IMG/VR virus record: IMGVR_UViG_3300043410_000159
Span: 1 to 34,470 of that record
Source of the DNA: a virus
Direction: 5' to 3' (one strand)
Length of the DNA stretch: 34,470 nucleotides
In this document: piece by piece, positions 25,499-30,341 of the stretch
Layout: the number at the start of each line of letters is the position of its first letter
Position numbering within the stretch: the first letter of the stretch is position 1
Position numbers and translations under genes: made by a program
Notes under the pieces: model-generated
Told to the model about the DNA's origin: nothing
The model's input: only the letters and a program-made list of their open reading frames with translations
Database searches by the model: none

Positions 25499-25714
25499 TC
25501 AAAAATCCATGTCTGAGTGTTCTTTTTCGCGTGGTTCGTTGAGATATGCCCAACCTGACCAACCGCCCTCAATGATTGGCAGATTGTCCAATTTCAACAT
25601 CAGACCATTCTTTGTGTCAATGATCGAACCGATGCGGTAATACTTGGTCTTTTCCACGCCGTCTTTCATGTACTTGCCGCCTGTGACGGTGACTTCATAT
25701 TTAAATTTACTCAT
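25499..25714 (-). CDS. Conserved small phage protein of the recombination operon
   Basis: This 71-residue protein is beta-rich with the pattern YEVTVTGGKYMKDGVEKTKY, IGSIIDTKNGLMLKLDNLPI and GWSGWAYLNEP. Similar small proteins accompany ERF/YqaJ-type recombination genes in other phages, by recollection; a single-strand DNA or recombination accessory role is only inferred. The C-terminus is acidic (EKEHSDMDF). It overlaps the exonuclease gene by 4 bases. Confidence 0.68.
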   Translation of the reverse strand: MSKFKYEVTVTGGKYMKDGVEKTKYYRIGSIIDTKNGLMLKLDNLPIIEGGWSGWAYLNEPREKEHSDMDF

Positions 25715-26331
25715 AGTTTTCTTTTTAAGTCATTGAGTTTGCTTACTTTCACATCTAATTCCATCAGAAACGACAGAACTTCTTTCTCCAACATTGATAT
25801 GTAATCTTCATCCCGTGGGACTCGCTTAATAAACAATTGGAGTTCTTTTGGCAATCGTGGGTCAAAGCTCACGAAGTCACACCACTTTCTGTCGGTACAA
25901 GCCATTTGCCATTGCATTTGGGTGACATACTTGCCTGGCACAGTTTGGGTCAGCAAAGTGTCAATATGCGTGGCCGTCTGGGGCGCTTTTATCTCAATAA
26001 GCCCCTCTGTGCCCACAAGCCCATCAGGTGACGCGCCAGCCTGTTCAATGCGTGGGTGGGTAATCATGGCTACCTCATCCACTAAAACATCCATCTTGGC
26101 CTCATACGCTGCTCTAGCGAGTGGTTCGTTATCTGTCCCCCATTGCATTGCCGCATTGGTGTAGGACTCTGCCACAGTCCCTGTCATGCGCTCACAGACC
26201 AACTGCGCCATGTAATTTTCACGGCTGGTTGAATAGCCTGTTTTGGTCTTGGCAATCACATCAGCTACGCGAGAGGCCGTGACCTTACCCAAGCGCTGTG
26301 CGAACCATTCTGGTGTTCCCTGTTCAATCAT
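25711..26331 (-). CDS. YqaJ-type phage exonuclease (lambda exonuclease fold)
   Basis: This 206-residue enzyme is the 5'-3' exonuclease partner of the annealing protein encoded upstream. Family features are QGTPEWFAQRLGKVTAS (residues 4-20), Glu69 in GTDNEPLA, Asp103 in GASPDG, the E-x-K pair Glu113/Lys115 in LIEIKAP, and the Gln-containing MQWQMACTDRKWCDF. These match the PD-(D/E)xK active site. I start at ATG 26331, which overlaps the upstream stop as ATGA; the longer reading to 26433 would run through the upstream gene. Together with ERF it would recombine replicating phage DNA. Confidence 0.92.
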   Translation of the reverse strand: MIEQGTPEWFAQRLGKVTASRVADVIAKTKTGYSTSRENYMAQLVCERMTGTVAESYTNAAMQWGTDNEPLARAAYEAKMDVLVDEVAMITHPRIEQAGASPDGLVGTEGLIEIKAPQTATHIDTLLTQTVPGKYVTQMQWQMACTDRKWCDFVSFDPRLPKELQLFIKRVPRDEDYISMLEKEVLSFLMELDVKVSKLNDLKRKL

Positions 26332-26528
26332 TGTTTGTCCTTCCAGTCTTTTAAGGCTTTTTTGCCCATGTCTGTCAAAATGCTGCCTGAGTTCACCAAA
26401 CCTCTGCGCCTGAGTGACCAGTATGTGTTCCATGAACCAGGCTTTTTGTTATCCAACTTAAATTTCCAACCCAAAGCAAAATGTTTCAACATAAAGGCTT
26501 GGTGCTGGCTAAGTTGAATTTTGGCCAT
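26328..26528 (-). CDS. Small protein with winged-helix-like pattern
   Basis: This 66-residue basic protein contains SQHQAFMLKHFALGW, then NTYWSLRRRGLVNSGSILTDMGKKAL, which looks like a recognition helix followed by a wing, as in small winged-helix regulators. It overlaps the exonuclease start by 4 bases and lies 2 bases after the alpha-CTD-like gene. A DNA-binding role is inferred from the pattern only. Confidence 0.64.
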   Translation of the reverse strand: MAKIQLSQHQAFMLKHFALGWKFKLDNKKPGSWNTYWSLRRRGLVNSGSILTDMGKKALKDWKDKQ

Positions 26529-26530
26529 TT

Positions 26531-26917
26531 TTATTCTTGACCTTTCAATTTCAATCCATGTTCAGCCATGGCCTCTCTAACAAGTTGTACGCCTTTTGCG
26601 CCCAAGTTAGGAATTCTTTTTAAATCTCGTATATCCCATTTACATAACTGTTCTTTTGTATAAATATCTTCTGCTCTTAAGCAACGAAAATATCTAACTG
26701 GTAAATTTAACTCGTGTAAATCGGCATTTTTATATAGTTGCTCTCGCTCTTGTTCTGCCAACCATTCCGCATGGATTCTGTCGCGATGATTTACCATTTC
26801 AATCGCTAGCCGATAAGCTGTTTGAGCCAATGCAAATGGATTGGTAATTCCAAATTTTTCAACTTGTGCTGTCATTGCGTTTGTCGCAAAGTGATCTAAC
26901 AATTCTTCTTTAGTCAT
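26531..26917 (-). CDS. Protein with RNA polymerase alpha-CTD-like C-terminal domain
   Basis: This 128-residue protein has a helical N-terminus (residues 1-65, ending in a charged helix with EWLAEQEREQ) and a C-terminal domain at about 68-126. That domain follows the bacterial alpha subunit CTD pattern: L-P-V-R-x-x-x-C-L-[RK]-A-E, then a leucine and Asp segment, L-K-R-I-P-N-L-G-x-K, and a final helix ending HGLKL. In E. coli the matching parts are TVRSANCLKAE, LLKTPNLGKKS and ASRGLSLG. The alpha-CTD binds UP-element DNA and activators, so this protein might redirect host polymerase or bind DNA. Its DNA is more AT-rich than its neighbours. It overlaps the ERF gene by 4 bases. Confidence 0.75.
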   Translation of the reverse strand: MTKEELLDHFATNAMTAQVEKFGITNPFALAQTAYRLAIEMVNHRDRIHAEWLAEQEREQLYKNADLHELNLPVRYFRCLRAEDIYTKEQLCKWDIRDLKRIPNLGAKGVQLVREAMAEHGLKLKGQE

Positions 26918-27462
26918 ACAAAACTCGCTTTCTTTTCGTCTTTAGCTGCAATGATTTTCTTCTGCCAGTTGGCATCAGTCCCACAAGCCTTGTACGCTTC
27001 TGTATAGGCTTTCTTCAATTCGTCTGCGTTCTTAGCGTCTTGAATAGCTACTAAGTGGTCTGCCATCATGTTTGAATCAACAGATGGTTTACGGCTAGCC
27101 ATGTTGCCATCGTCATCTTCTGGCGCGATACCGCAAGCTGCCATCAATGAATAACGGCGGCCATAAGTAAGGGCAGAAGCGTAACCTTGTGGGTCTTTCT
27201 TGGTGGCAGGAAAGTGGACAATCCCGCACTCCAACATTTCGCCTGATTCGTGGACAAACACAGTCTCAACCATGATGCCGTCAGGACAATCGTAGTTCTT
27301 CTGTAAAAGGAAAATGCCGTTGTCGTTCAAGGCATCAATGACAGCCTCAACGCAAGCTGACAGATCGGCATACTTTGAGCGAAAGTGTGGGTTAGTGGAA
27401 GTCTTGAGGGCAGGGCCAAAGGCTTTCTGCGCCTTGACAAGTGCGGTGGCAATATTCTTCAT
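26914..27462 (-). CDS. ERF-family single-strand annealing protein
   Basis: This 182-residue protein matches the ERF recombinase family: NPHFRSKYADLSACVEAV (residues 24-41), then KKDPQGYASALTYGRRYSLM (88-107) and GIAPEDDDGN (111-120). It anneals complementary single strands and works with the YqaJ-type exonuclease three genes downstream. The C-terminus is a Lys/Ala-rich helix. Its start follows the previous TAA directly, with GGAG inside the end of the upstream gene. Confidence 0.93.
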   Translation of the reverse strand: MKNIATALVKAQKAFGPALKTSTNPHFRSKYADLSACVEAVIDALNDNGIFLLQKNYDCPDGIMVETVFVHESGEMLECGIVHFPATKKDPQGYASALTYGRRYSLMAACGIAPEDDDGNMASRKPSVDSNMMADHLVAIQDAKNADELKKAYTEAYKACGTDANWQKKIIAAKDEKKASFV

Positions 27463-27639
27463 TTATTTACTCCAAAAAAATACATCTAATGCAACAACAA
27501 CCAAGGCAATAACGCTGATTGCCATTATTACTTTGTCAACCCAATGAAGCCCGTTGTAAGGCTTCTCGATTGATGCGCCATATTCCATCGTGTTGGGAAA
27601 GGCTTCGTTAATGGTGCGGGGGTGTTTGCGTTCAGTCAT
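27463..27639 (-). CDS. Small protein with C-terminal membrane anchor
   Basis: This 58-residue protein has a polar N-terminus (MTERKHPRTINEAFPNTMEY) and one membrane segment near the C-terminus (VDKVIMAISVIALVVVALDVFFW). I chose ATG 27639, which has GGAG about eight bases upstream and overlaps the upstream gene by 8 bases; a start at 27657 would add six residues inside that gene. Its stop directly abuts the ERF start. Function is unknown. Confidence 0.62.
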   Translation of the reverse strand: MTERKHPRTINEAFPNTMEYGASIEKPYNGLHWVDKVIMAISVIALVVVALDVFFWSK

Positions 27640-27859
27640 TTGCGTTCTCCAAAGCAATCTCTAAAGCCAAGTCAGCATTGCGGCGCTTGATAATGGCGAG
27701 ATAGTTTTGTTCAAATTCGCGGATTACAGCATCTGACAGCAGGTTGTAAATGCAGTCGTCACCGTTAATCATGACATTCCACAGAGAGCCTGTGTATGGG
27801 TCAAAGATACATTCAAACGTTGCGCTTGAATCGTGGTGGGTCATTGTCAAAGTTTCCAT
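27632..27859 (-). CDS. Small early protein of unknown function
   Basis: This 75-residue protein has a beta-like front (SATFECIFDPYTGSLWNVMI) and a helical back (AVIREFEQNYLAIIKRRNAD). The start is preceded by TTAGGAGAACTTAG, one of the three repeated leaders. No family is recognised. Placement near the head of the leftward operon suggests early expression. Confidence 0.62.
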   Translation of the reverse strand: METLTMTHHDSSATFECIFDPYTGSLWNVMINGDDCIYNLLSDAVIREFEQNYLAIIKRRNADLALEIALENAND

Positions 27860-27873
27860 CTAAGTTCTCCTAA
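27857..27873 (-). promoter_or_regulatory. Repeated translation-start leader, copy 2
   Basis: On the minus strand this reads TTAGGAGAACTTAGATG, ending in the start codon at 27859. It differs from copy 3 by one base and from copy 1 by two. Confidence 0.7.
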
Positions 27874-28020
27874 TTACGCTTGAAAGATTTGGCAATGTAC
27901 ACCACGCTTGACCATCAAAGACACAAAGCCTAAAGCCTTGGTGATTGATGTGAACTCCATGCGTGACCAGCCATCGGCGGTGTTGGTTGTGTTGAATTCA
28001 ACTACATAACTGCTTTTCAT
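27874..28020 (-). CDS. First gene of the leftward operon, 48 residues, unknown function
   Basis: The frame encodes MKSSYVVEFNTTNTADGWSR followed by a helix with SITKALGFVSLMVKRG and a short end. It has an excellent ribosome site (TTAGGAGTACTTAG before ATG 28020), and its stop lies 14 bases before the next gene's start. It is the first gene after the leftward promoter and would be expressed earliest. No family is recognised. Confidence 0.66.
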   Translation of the reverse strand: MKSSYVVEFNTTNTADGWSRMEFTSITKALGFVSLMVKRGVHCQIFQA

Positions 28021-28034
28021 CTAAGTACTCCTAA
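28018..28034 (-). promoter_or_regulatory. Repeated translation-start leader, copy 3
   Basis: On the minus strand this reads TTAGGAGTACTTAGATG, ending in the start codon at 28020. Confidence 0.7.
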
Positions 28035-28065
28035 ATTTCCGCTTGCGTTTTGCTGCGGTAAGTGA

Positions 28066-28095
28066 ATTCTAGTCCACAAATGTAGACAAACGCAA
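28066..28095 (-). promoter_or_regulatory. Leftward early promoter
   Basis: On the minus strand TTGCGT (28095-28090) is followed after 18 bases by TAGAAT (28071-28066). Transcription would start near 28059 and run into the 48-residue gene. The 16-base operator at 28072-28087 lies entirely in the spacer, so a repressor bound there would block RNA polymerase. Confidence 0.65.
28072..28087. promoter_or_regulatory. Operator 1 (GTCCAC-N4-GTAGAC)
   Basis: This inverted repeat has 6-base half-sites with one mismatch and a 4-base AT-rich spacer (AAAT). It matches operator 2 at 28147-28162. Small Cro/CI-type dimers bind sites of this size. It fills the spacer of the leftward promoter. Confidence 0.7.
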
Positions 28096-28146
28096 GGGCA
28101 TACAAAAAATATTTTTTAGCGTGTGGCGTAAACGCAACTGTTGCCC

Positions 28147-28162
28147 GTCTACCAATGTAGAA
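28147..28162. promoter_or_regulatory. Operator 2 (GTCTAC-N4-GTAGAA)
   Basis: This is a perfect 5-base inverted repeat (TCTAC/GTAGA) extended on one side to GTCTAC, with spacer CAAT. It overlaps the candidate -10 box of the Cro-like gene and ends 7 bases before its ATG, which fits autoregulation. It is 75 bases from operator 1. Confidence 0.7.
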
Positions 28163-28163
28163 T
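28158..28163 (+). promoter_or_regulatory. Candidate -10 box of the Cro-like gene
   Basis: TAGAAT, the same hexamer as in the leftward promoter, ends 6 bases before the ATG at 28170, so RNA would start at or next to the start codon. No good -35 box is seen at 16-18 bases (CAACTG at best), so an activator or weak constitutive use is possible. Confidence 0.45.
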
Positions 28164-28169
28164 AATTGC

Positions 28170-28337
28170 ATGACTATTGAAGATGCTATCAAACGCGCAG
28201 GCTCACCAAGTGAGCTAGCCAGGCTTTTAGGCGTAAGCCGTGGGGCTGTGTACTTGTGGCAAACGCGAAAGTTCCCCAAGATGAGGGTTTATCAACTACG
28301 GGTCATGCGCCCAGAATGGTTTGAGGTAATCAAATGA
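28170..28337 (+). CDS. Cro-like HTH repressor, 55 residues
   Basis: This small protein is a single helix-turn-helix domain of the Cro/YdaS-like type: AIKRAGSPSELARLLGVSRG (residues 6-25), AVYLWQTRKFPKM. The phase SELARLLGVSRGAVYLW is the HTH. It is transcribed divergently from the leftward operon and separated by the operator region, so it most likely represses one or both promoters. The ATG at 28170 has no Shine-Dalgarno sequence, and a -10-like box ends six bases before it, suggesting a leaderless mRNA. Its stop overlaps the next ATG (ATGA at 28334). No CI partner is seen. Confidence 0.82.
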   Translation: MTIEDAIKRAGSPSELARLLGVSRGAVYLWQTRKFPKMRVYQLRVMRPEWFEVIK

Positions 28338-28486
28338 AAAAGCTAATCTGTATCATTTTTGCAACATTGTCATTTTCTGCCATGGCGCAGACTTCTACCC
28401 ATACCTATTGGGTAAATGGAAAGTCCGTGACCTGCACAACAACTTGTTTCGGTAATGGGCAATCTTGCACTACATCTTGTTTTTGA
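28334..28486 (+). CDS. Small secreted Cys-rich protein with signal peptide
   Basis: This 50-residue protein has a clear signal peptide: KK at residues 2-3, a hydrophobic core LICIIFATLSFS and an AMA cleavage site after residue 18. The mature part (about 32 residues) is Thr-rich with four cysteines spaced C-x3-C-x7-C-x3-C, built from two similar units, CTTTCF and CTTSCF. It would be exported to the periplasm or surface and probably disulphide-bonded. It is translationally coupled to the Cro-like gene (ATGA overlap). Possible roles are superinfection exclusion or altering the envelope early in infection; none is shown. Confidence 0.72.
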   Translation: MKKLICIIFATLSFSAMAQTSTHTYWVNGKSVTCTTTCFGNGQSCTTSCF

Positions 28487-28522
28487 TGTAACATTGTTTG
28501 AAACACGGCTAGGTTTGAAGTC

Positions 28523-28606
28523 ATGAGCAAACCGAAAAGCGAACCGCACCCCGCCTGCCGCTTGTTTCTTTTCAGGGTGCAACTTGAGTGCGGAAATCCA
28601 AAATGA
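28523..28606 (+). CDS. Possible 27-residue leader peptide before the replication gene
   Basis: The frame encodes a basic peptide MSKPKSEPHPACRLFLFRVQ plus seven residues. Its TGA overlaps the replication gene's ATG at 28603 (ATGA), and AGG and GAAG lie upstream as weak ribosome sites. The overlap suggests coupling, but no other evidence supports it. Confidence 0.33.
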   Translation: MSKPKSEPHPACRLFLFRVQLECGNPK

Positions 28607-29301
28607 AGATCAAAAATTGGTCGAAATTCCAACATTTCAAAGACCGTAAACCACCTTGGGTCAAGCTGTATCGAGATGTTCTTGATGACCTTGAATGGCA
28701 CGAATTAGACCCACTTGCAAGCAAAGTGCTAGTGATGTGTTGGCTTATCGCTAGTGAAGATGAAGGTCGTCTACCAAACACAAAAACCCTTGCATTTCGT
28801 CTAAGAATGACAGAAAAGCAAACTTTGGAATCAATTAACAAGCTGTCTCATTGGTTGGAACAAGACGATATCAACTTGATATCAAAGCAATATCAAACCG
28901 ATAGTCTAGAGACAGAGAGAGAGACAGAGAAAGAGAAGAGACAGAACACGCAGCGCGGGTCGCGCTTGCCAACCGATTGGACTTTGCCAGTTGATTGGAA
29001 AACATGGGCGCAAGCTGAACGACCAGACCTGAACGCAGAAAAGGTTGCTGAATCGTTTAAGGACTTTTGGATTTCTAAGCCTGGTGCTGGCGGTGTAAAA
29101 CTTAATTGGGAAGCCACTTGGCGTAACTGGGTCAGAAGCCAAAAACAATCCTACAAACCGCAGGATGTTGTTCACCAAACAACCCCAACCCCTGCCAACC
29201 ATGACGCTGCCCTGCGAAAGATTGAAGAAGATCGCAAGAAGGCAGTTAAACCAAACGCAGAAGTCCAGGCAAGGATTGCTCAACTTTTGAAGGGCGTGTG
29301 A
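28603..29301 (+). CDS. Replication initiation protein (lambda O-like role)
   Basis: This 232-residue protein has an N-terminal winged-helix-like domain (residues 1-90: KFQHFKDRKPPWVKLYRDVL, then SKVLVMCWLIASEDEGRLPN and LAFRLRMTEKQTLESINKL). A low-complexity Glu/Arg/Lys linker follows (about 100-115), then a C-terminal domain with WKTWAQAERPDLNAEK, FKDFWISK and WEATWRNWVR. This layout is common in phage initiators that bind origin iterons and recruit a helicase. Three phased repeats lie within its own gene at 28867-28896. I chose ATG 28603; the GTG at 28588 would add five residues. No phage helicase gene is visible, so host DnaB is probably recruited. Confidence 0.76.
   Translation: MKIKNWSKFQHFKDRKPPWVKLYRDVLDDLEWHELDPLASKVLVMCWLIASEDEGRLPNTKTLAFRLRMTEKQTLESINKLSHWLEQDDINLISKQYQTDSLETERETEKEKRQNTQRGSRLPTDWTLPVDWKTWAQAERPDLNAEKVAESFKDFWISKPGAGGVKLNWEATWRNWVRSQKQSYKPQDVVHQTTPTPANHDAALRKIEEDRKKAVKPNAEVQARIAQLLKGV
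28867..28896 (+). repeat. Three phased direct repeats (candidate origin iterons)
   Basis: GATATCAA occurs at 28867-28874 and 28878-28885, and AATATCAA at 28889-28896, at exactly 11-base spacing, so they face the same side of the helix. They lie inside the replication-initiator gene and just before a purine-rich tract. Lambda has its origin iterons in gene O in the same way. Confidence 0.6.
28908..28946 (+). repeat. Purine-rich GAGACA/GAGA tract
   Basis: This stretch of about 39 bases is almost only A and G on the plus strand, with occasional C, built from GAGACAGAGA-type units. It encodes the Glu/Arg/Lys linker of the initiator. It may also act as an easily opened or slippage-prone part of the origin. 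Confidence 0.65.
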
Positions 29302-29304
29302 TGA

Positions 29305-29523
29305 ATGAACTCGAAAAAGCGTGGAATATCGGAACTGGAACACATGAAGAACTGCGAGGCTCAGGAATGGACTCGGAGATTCAAAGAGAAAGCATCGACT
29401 CTTGGCTACAACAAAGCGTTTGCATGGTGGCAGGGTGTGTTAAGGGACTTGGAACGAATCAGAGGCGAATCCGCTACTTTGGATTTGAGACAACGCATGA
29501 ACAAACTGAAGGATAAAAAATGA
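29305..29523 (+). CDS. Small conserved phage protein downstream of the initiator
   Basis: This 72-residue basic protein has the pattern EWTRRFKEKASTLGYNKAFA, WWQGVLRDLERIRGESA, LRQRMNKLKD, which I recall from small proteins next to phage replication genes. A competing frame at 29298-29516 over the same DNA lacks such a pattern and is rejected. The ATG at 29305 is four bases after the initiator stop, with AAGGG upstream. Function is unknown. Confidence 0.68.
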   Translation: MNSKKRGISELEHMKNCEAQEWTRRFKEKASTLGYNKAFAWWQGVLRDLERIRGESATLDLRQRMNKLKDKK

Positions 29524-29711
29524 ACTGGCAAGACGAACAAAAGAAGGTGGCTACTGGTGTAACTGGTAAGCGTGAATGGGTTGGGCTGACTGATGAGGAT
29601 ATTGAAAAAGCCTATAAACAAGCAGAAAAGAAAGAGCCTTACATGGGCGCTGTCACGCGCAAAGGCATTGCAGAAGCATTTGAACAAATCTTGAAAGAGA
29701 AAAACACATGA
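29520..29711 (+). CDS. Small conserved phage protein
   Basis: This 63-residue charged protein (WVGLTDEDIEKAYKQAEKKE in the middle, ending AEAFEQILKEKNT) overlaps the genes on both sides by 4 bases. The TDEDIEKAY segment resembles a motif seen in many small phage proteins of unknown role. It ends with the same LKEKNT-stop as the next gene. Confidence 0.65.
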   Translation: MNWQDEQKKVATGVTGKREWVGLTDEDIEKAYKQAEKKEPYMGAVTRKGIAEAFEQILKEKNT

Positions 29712-29797
29712 TTACTTTTATTTATGGAATGTGGTTTGGTATTGCATTGACATACATTTGTTTTGAGATAGCCAAACTCAAGGAAAAGAACACATGA
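29708..29797 (+). CDS. 29-residue membrane microprotein
   Basis: The frame encodes MITFIYGMWFGIALTYICFE followed by IAKLKEKNT, a single hydrophobic helix with a basic end. It overlaps both neighbours by ATGA, so it is exactly embedded in the chain of coupled genes. Its last six residues repeat those of the previous protein. Function is unknown. Confidence 0.55.
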   Translation: MITFIYGMWFGIALTYICFEIAKLKEKNT

Positions 29798-29916
29798 AGT
29801 TCATAGCCCGAATATGCGCTATCTGCAAAAAACCCAAATCAGCTCTTGGTGGAAAGATCATCAAGCGTAACGGTATGCGTCAATGGATATGCAAATCCTG
29901 CGTAGAAGAACAATGA
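29794..29916 (+). CDS. 40-residue zinc-ribbon-like protein
   Basis: This basic miniprotein has two C-x2-C knuckles, CAIC near residue 8 and CKSC near residue 33, separated by a Lys/Arg-rich loop (KKPKSALGGKIIKRNGMRQW). That is the layout of a minimal zinc ribbon, likely to bind nucleic acid or protein. It overlaps both neighbours by 4 bases. It could be a partner of the RusA resolvase encoded next; this is inference from coupling. Confidence 0.62.
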   Translation: MKFIARICAICKKPKSALGGKIIKRNGMRQWICKSCVEEQ

Positions 29917-30341
29917 CATTTATGCTCACATTCACCATTGAAGGCGACCCACACGGCAAGGGAAGGCCACGCTTTCGGTCAACAGGAAAGTTTGTCCAGA
30001 CCTACACCGATTCCAAAACAAAGTCGTATGAGGAAAAAGTCAGGGATGCTGCCAAACAAGCGATGGGAGAGTCCGAGCCATTAGAAACGCCTGTAAGCGT
30101 CTTTTGCTACATAAGGTTGTCAATCCCTAAGTCGTACTCCAAAACCCGCAGGGAAGCCTGTTTAAGCGGCTCTGAGAGGCCTTCTAAAAAGCCAGACACC
30201 GACAATGTGTTCAAAAGCGTGTCAGATGCGATGAACGGGATTGTTTACAAGGATGATTGTCAGATTGTGTCAATCAACGCCAAAAAGGTTTATTCGGCTG
30301 TGGCGGGGGTTGATGTGATGGTCAGAGAAGAAATTAACTAA
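29913..30341 (+). CDS. RusA-type Holliday-junction resolvase
   Basis: This 142-residue protein has the RusA pattern: an N-terminal GDPHGKGRPRF (residues 11-21) and the acidic catalytic region KKPDTDNVFKSVSDAMNGIV (92-111) with Asp95, Asp97 and Asp105, followed by YKDDCQIV. It cuts four-way junctions made by replication and recombination and so prepares DNA for packaging. I start at ATG 29913, which overlaps the zinc-ribbon stop; ATG 29922 is also possible. Confidence 0.92.
   Translation: MTFMLTFTIEGDPHGKGRPRFRSTGKFVQTYTDSKTKSYEEKVRDAAKQAMGESEPLETPVSVFCYIRLSIPKSYSKTRREACLSGSERPSKKPDTDNVFKSVSDAMNGIVYKDDCQIVSINAKKVYSAVAGVDVMVREEIN

Follow-up and report, generated by a model that had tools for sequence, protein, structure and literature searches.

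Lambda and P22 combine a Cro-family repressor with divergent early operons (ERF-type recombination genes to the left, replication genes to the right) and with operators, three dyads in each of OL and OR, that overlap the early promoters; both also have cI/c2 opposite cro, and PRM. The telomere phages PY54, N15 and phiKO2 share an N15-type helical Cro fold, a 16-bp palindromic operator and a prophage repressor opposite cro. For PY54, a leaderless cro mRNA and an UP-like AT block have been reported, and its Cro binds a single operator and, it appears, leaves its own gene unrepressed (PMC4488713); phiKO2 Cro binds OR3 only (PMC4997575). A cultured phage, Pantoea phage PdC23 (Certevirus), has a Cro-like gene between an ERF operon on the left and a replication operon on the right, with no repressor annotated beside cro.

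The locus described here lies in a 34,470-base virus contig (the window, by which we mean the whole stretch of DNA analysed) that carries P22-like podophage genes for terminase, portal, scaffold, coat, head closure, DNA ejection and endolysin. It resembles lambda and P22 in the features listed above, but lacks cI/c2 and PRM, has a single dyad per promoter, and holds both predicted operators within one 149-bp region in which the promoters PL and PR are adjacent and divergent. With the N15 group it shares, by prediction, the 16-bp palindromic operator and the Cro fold, and with PY54 an UP-like AT block and a predicted leaderless cro mRNA, whereas the N15-group phages have the prophage repressor and their Cro proteins, where tested, bind one site. 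The Cro-like gene of PdC23 shows 45% identity to that of the window, but by eye the PdC23 locus offers only an inverted GACTATACA pair near two presumed -10 regions. The layout appears to be a lytic relative of the lambda/P22 switch and not an entirely new one. We consider it likely that it damps both early operons, in a P22-like and probably strictly lytic podophage, through negative feedback by Cro alone, and that it does not act as a bistable switch.

The divergent early control region

The features to which the text refers are as follows.

25711-28020, minus strand: leftward early operon, with 48-, 75- and 64-aa genes, ERF (26914-27462), an alpha-CTD protein (26531-26917) and YqaJ exonuclease (25711-26433)
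28028-28032, minus strand: Shine-Dalgarno AGGAG of the first leftward gene, conserved directly after the hairpin
28039-28058, minus strand: leader hairpin, CCGC A GC AAAAC GC AA GCGG, from covariation, model search and folding
28066-28095, minus strand: leftward promoter PL, TTGCGT (28095-28090), 18-bp spacer, TAGAAT (28071-28066), predicted +1 near 28059
28072-28087: predicted left operator OL, GTCCACAAATGTAGAC, filling the PL spacer
28104-28117: AT block between the promoters, AAAAAATATTTTTT, UP-element-like, with a similar block in relatives of clades A, B, D and E
28147-28162: predicted right operator OR, GTCTACCAATGTAGAA, overlapping the -10 of the rightward promoter
28158-28163, plus strand: TAGAAT, -10 of the rightward promoter PR, 6 nt before the cro ATG, with a weak -35
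28170-28337, plus strand: cro-like repressor gene, 55 aa (P22_Cro PF14549, E=2.8e-8; phrog_409)
28334-30341, plus strand: rightward operon after cro, with a 50-aa signal-peptide-like protein, replication protein (28588-29301) and RusA (29883-30341)

The 55-residue protein scores 33.8 bits against P22_Cro PF14549 (curated cut-off 30.2), and also passes YdaS_toxin PF15943 (31.8 against 30), a model that overlaps PF14549. Its profile matches P22 Cro 1rzs with E=3.5e-7. AlphaFold models it as a four-helix HTH protein (pLDDT 94.8; helices 3-10, 13-20, 24-32 and 37-46), for which the top Foldseek neighbours are XPH1, Xfaso 1, N15 Cro and P22 Cro, with TMq of 0.75 for N15 Cro and 0.69 for P22 Cro 1rzs and E-values that are weak for so short a chain. 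By family, then, it is a P22_Cro protein and a presumed repressor. A profile search of genome contigs with the Cro alignment returned four distant loci only.

A consensus promoter scanner reported neither PL nor PR in the window, finding one promoter-like site where 1.7 are expected by chance, so that both promoters rest on their conserved position; we regard the generic scan as uninformative. In the relatives inspected, a -10-like hexamer lies 5-9 nt upstream of the cro ATG. Since the PR -10 of the window is only 6 nt before the ATG, the cro mRNA is predicted to be leaderless. The repeats belong to the divergent early control region of a P22-like phage.

Opposite cro, in the place of CI/c2, is a gene for a 48-aa protein without a family match. 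The initial annotation had the locus without CI or integrase, and searches of 24 records (the window and 23 relatives, classed 'linear' and possibly incomplete) uphold this: there was no match to Phage_integrase PF00589, and hence none of the integration function of the lambda/P22 bistable switch in these records, no match to Peptidase_S24 PF00717, and none above cut-off to HTH_3 PF01381. The Cro-like gene is the sole recognisable repressor gene.

Several neighbouring features deserve record. The 128-aa product of 26531-26917 (minus strand) contains an RNA polymerase alpha C-terminal domain (PF03118, E=1.2e-11) and keeps, by eye, the equivalents of R265, C269, G296 and K298; this phage-borne gene, which occurs near the UP-like element, was not found in the 70 cro loci described below but is present in 19 other viral loci, many of them adjoining the same ERF and exonuclease genes. 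The 50-aa protein (28334-28486, plus strand) is cysteine-rich with a signal-peptide-like start, and its gene overlaps the cro stop codon; it is kept after cro in L001, L058, L061 and L066-L069, and in L120-L123, which have no recognisable cro. Between this gene and the replication gene, at 28502-28577 (plus strand), there is an int-alpA RNA (Rfam RF02996; 36.0 bits, cut-off 35.8). It is also found at 4207-4281 of L066, the only one of 24 relatives searched to reach the gathering score, and we do not count it as a component of the control circuit.

Paired dyads in the window and its relatives

Two 16-base inverted repeats with the half-site GTCTAC had been described from the sequence, and they are found exactly, at 28072-28087 and 28147-28162. 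The first was correctly placed in the 18-bp spacer of TTGCGT-TAGAAT (minus strand, 28095-28066), and the second, said to cover the -10 of the Cro-like gene, overlaps TAGAAT at 28158-28163. The symmetry of each 16-mer is 5/6, and the two are identical to each other at 13/16 positions. Allowing at most one mismatch, GTCTAC-N4-GTAGAC occurs in the 34,470 bp only at OL and OR, the next best site having three mismatches. Comparable palindrome pairs number nine in the real window and 1-10 in shuffled genomes. When the 149-bp region is shuffled, an OL/OR-like pair arises once in 3000 trials; a two-site score with looser criteria is reached by 9 of 1500 region shuffles and by 5 of 687 genome windows of the same size. 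With pairs expected by chance genome-wide and rare regionally, the window sequence alone is suggestive, and the case is made by the relatives.

The initial annotation also listed AAACGCAA as occurring three times. The copies are there, at 28043 (inverted), 28088 and 28130, but as a regulatory repeat the element is not conserved: 13 of 14 relatives checked have no copy and the remaining one has a single copy. The copy at 28043 sits in the RNA hairpin, and that at 28088 contains the -35 hexamer.

Our IMG/VR search gave 70 loci, 69 of them usable close relatives; the other, L070, has a more distant protein in another context. Most relatives have ERF and/or exonuclease genes to the left of cro and replication, RusA or HNH genes to the right. 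By a dyad scoring that was designed after the pattern had been seen, most well-resolved loci carry at each early promoter an 18-bp dyad of the TGT-N12-ACA type with 6-N4-6 geometry, OL lying at -75 to -117 and OR at -19 to -27 relative to the cro ATG. A less biased two-site score exceeds all or nearly all shuffles in the window, L001, L010, L048, L024, L051 and L012; it is no better than shuffles in several other relatives, whose site symmetry is only 3-4/6, and in several clades OR in particular is poorly symmetric (3/6). A left site resembles best the right site of its own clade, the true pairing ranking first of 120 permutations over five clades. Because the dyad scoring is post hoc, we regard this within-clade pairing as the better evidence. 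The claim of two matching operators, one per divergent early promoter, is thus supported, the paired arrangement being found in more distant clades as well.

The half-site itself differs between clades, together with the recognition helix of Cro: it is GTCTAC in the window clade, mostly GTCTAG in clade D, GT[AG]TAG in clade C and TATAAG in L125 and L126. The last two loci were met via the alpha-CTD gene, and their Cro has a different recognition helix; their left site is TATAAGCCAACTAATA, and the right site is its exact reverse complement in L125 (16/16; half-sites TATAAG/TATTAG) and nearly so in L126 (15/16). Owing to this difference in half-site, a universal operator matrix fails between clades, whereas matrices within clades C and D work. 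A matrix built from other clades does not rank the OR of the window highly.

Conservation among phages with the same repressor had been proposed as a check, and the repeats withstand it. L001, whose repressor is 98% identical, keeps OR exactly and has a palindromic OL; taken by itself this counts for little, the region of L001 being nearly identical to that of the window. The two sequences are alike from OL through cro and unlike just to the left of OL, the operator apparently being the site of a recombination junction. Although its left flank differs, L001 has there a palindromic CTAC, an equally spaced -10 and a hairpin in the leader, and PL is retained as a -35-like TTGGCA, an 18-bp spacer and TATGAT.

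In four further loci, L120-L123 (in L122 at 2387, minus strand), we see the same control region, with the hairpin and an OR-like TGT-N12-ACA site kept; the first rightward gene encodes a 69-aa cysteine-containing protein without Cro similarity. These loci, like the poor -35 of PR, speak against the reading that we propose below.

The hairpin at the predicted start of the leftward transcript

A hairpin that the initial annotation did not mention has its first base about one position downstream of the +1 predicted from the PL -10, and 6 nt separate its end from AGGAG. Among ten distinct combinations of arms, pairing is preserved at 39 of 40 outer pairs; shuffling the arms leaves 23 on average, and one in 20,000 shuffles is as high. 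In a MAFFT alignment of 21 sequences, covariation is 0.404, compared with 0.108 when shuffled (0 of 500 reaching it) and at most 0.075 with the partner slid; both counts are inflated by the relatedness of the sequences. Stem variants outside the model can be read directly from the sequence (CCCTC/GAGGG in L122, CCCTA/TAGGG in L126). The occurrence of G-C, C-G and A-U at one pair, along with a variable loop length, argues for an RNA. Pairing is kept with loops of three (L002), four (L015) and five bases (L009), and single-base changes of this kind would rotate the half-sites of a DNA operator on the helix; we therefore reject the hairpin as a third operator. Nor is it a terminator, the U-run after it being missing in the window and clade D, and no conserved sequence follows it that could be a boxA.

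Stabilisation of the mRNA 5' end is known for the ompA and papA leaders (from works cited in PMC3997798). Like those stem-loops, the element lies within a few bases of the predicted 5' end and just upstream of the ribosome-binding site, with a stem free to covary; unlike them, it travels with a Cro operator. It also recalls HK022 put and lambda nut, in that an early leftward transcript opens with a structured RNA. The put RNA, however, is ~70 nt with two stem-loops (PMC9378689), whereas a single short stem-loop is conserved here, with a freely varying stem and no conserved boxA. By analogy, the hairpin is most likely a 5'-end stabiliser of the leftward mRNA. A covarying 5' hairpin tied to an operator is apparently a cis element not previously described, and the most original part of these observations.

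Operator and hairpin also occur together away from cro. The canonical-site matrix of clade C finds extra sites far from cro in L010, L052, L027 and L030, and the hairpin covariance model, which is independent of it, gives off-position matches in the same four loci and also in L028, L031/L034, L038 and L044. Where the two methods agree, in these four loci, operator and hairpin immediately adjoin, and a Shine-Dalgarno sequence and then a gene come after the hairpin; clade C has a second such cassette kilobases from the first. This co-occurrence is the strongest support that operator and hairpin are both real and linked. In the window the hairpin is single-copy (26.4 bits with the covariance model, next match 12.4). 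It is possible, though we think it rather doubtful, that operator, promoter, 5' hairpin and Shine-Dalgarno form a portable cassette, which clade C would have duplicated to place several operons under one Cro, and that the leader RNA belongs to an undescribed class and does more than protect mRNA, perhaps modifying RNA polymerase or the ribosome.

Clade C shows in addition a 15-bp dyad, TAGGG-N5-CCCTA, upstream of the canonical and duplicated promoters (L016-L057; second copies in L027, L028, L030, L038 and L044), which is possibly an activator site. Between genes, L010 (7633-7665), L052 (3764-3796) and L060 (2227-2259) carry the variant GGGGCTTCGGCCCC, with the 3' half of the hairpin element and a Shine-Dalgarno sequence behind it. 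In L058-L069, 1.7-3.3 kb after cro, an invariant TGTCTTATAATCTAGACA of clade D has TATAAT within an operator-like dyad; since it lies inside the start of a conserved 68-aa gene, where coding constraint may explain the conservation, we set it aside as operator evidence.

Proposed feedback by Cro and its alternatives

In the circuit that we propose, host RNA polymerase would fire the divergent PL (recombination operon: exonuclease, ERF) and PR (cro-replication operon), and the leaderless PR transcript would yield the 55-aa Cro early. Cro dimers would bind the 16-18-bp dyad at each promoter, inside the PL spacer and over the PR -10, excluding RNA polymerase, so that the build-up of Cro would turn down both early operons in a symmetrical, one-repressor negative feedback. 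Such a circuit would be the 'Cro half' of lambda/P22, without CI to hold the opposite state, and its leftward mRNA would begin with the hairpin just upstream of the ribosome-binding site. Where the initial annotation spoke of a divergent genetic switch, we keep the divergent control through two operators; a lone repressor that controls both directions, unopposed by CI, makes a feedback brake, and 'switch' overstates it.

The main caution for repression from two operators comes by analogy from PY54 and phiKO2 (PMC4488713, PMC4997575), whose single-site Cro proteins give precedent for a Cro that binds one dyad only or spares its own promoter, the second dyad being vestigial or meant for another factor. 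The OR symmetry of 3/6 in several clades would fit, but the two sites of the window are equally symmetric and 13/16 alike, the left and right sites of L125 and L126 match at 16/16 and 15/16, and the two sites shift in parallel between clades, making us think a one-site Cro unlikely here. The parallel change of half-site and Cro recognition helix among related phages of the same gene layout bears on another possibility, that the dyads are sites for a host regulator, with Cro working elsewhere. Host-factor sites can occur at phage promoters, though none of our results indicates one here, but a half-site that tracks a phage protein is unlike a host-regulator site, and we hold this very improbable.

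We give equally little credence to the repeats being a chance by-product of two similar AT-rich promoters. Equally similar pairs do arise in shuffled whole genomes, but rarely in the shuffled region; moreover, geometry and position are kept across diverged relatives, the likeness of OL and OR extends to spacer bases outside the -10, and a matrix detects second operator copies in clade C. More substantial, though we find it quite improbable, is the alternative of a temperate switch whose CI-type repressor is missing or has escaped recognition, Cro being just one of its arms. Among isolates with a related Cro, some have a divergent repressor and a CII-like gene as well, Vibrio phage K242 being one, and the linear-class records of the window and its relatives may lack a segment. 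Against this, the gene opposite cro is a small recombination-operon gene and not a repressor, the family searches of the 24 records gave neither integrase nor S24 peptidase nor an HTH_3 protein above cut-off, and the cro-like gene of PdC23 has equivalent neighbours, ERF on one side and replication on the other, again with Cro alone.

Read as a Cro-only feedback circuit, the locus would be a natural minimal form of the textbook lambda/P22 circuit, with many diverged relatives. As operator and recognition helix change together among these, the rules of repressor-operator recognition become directly testable, and so do the effects of Cro without CI.
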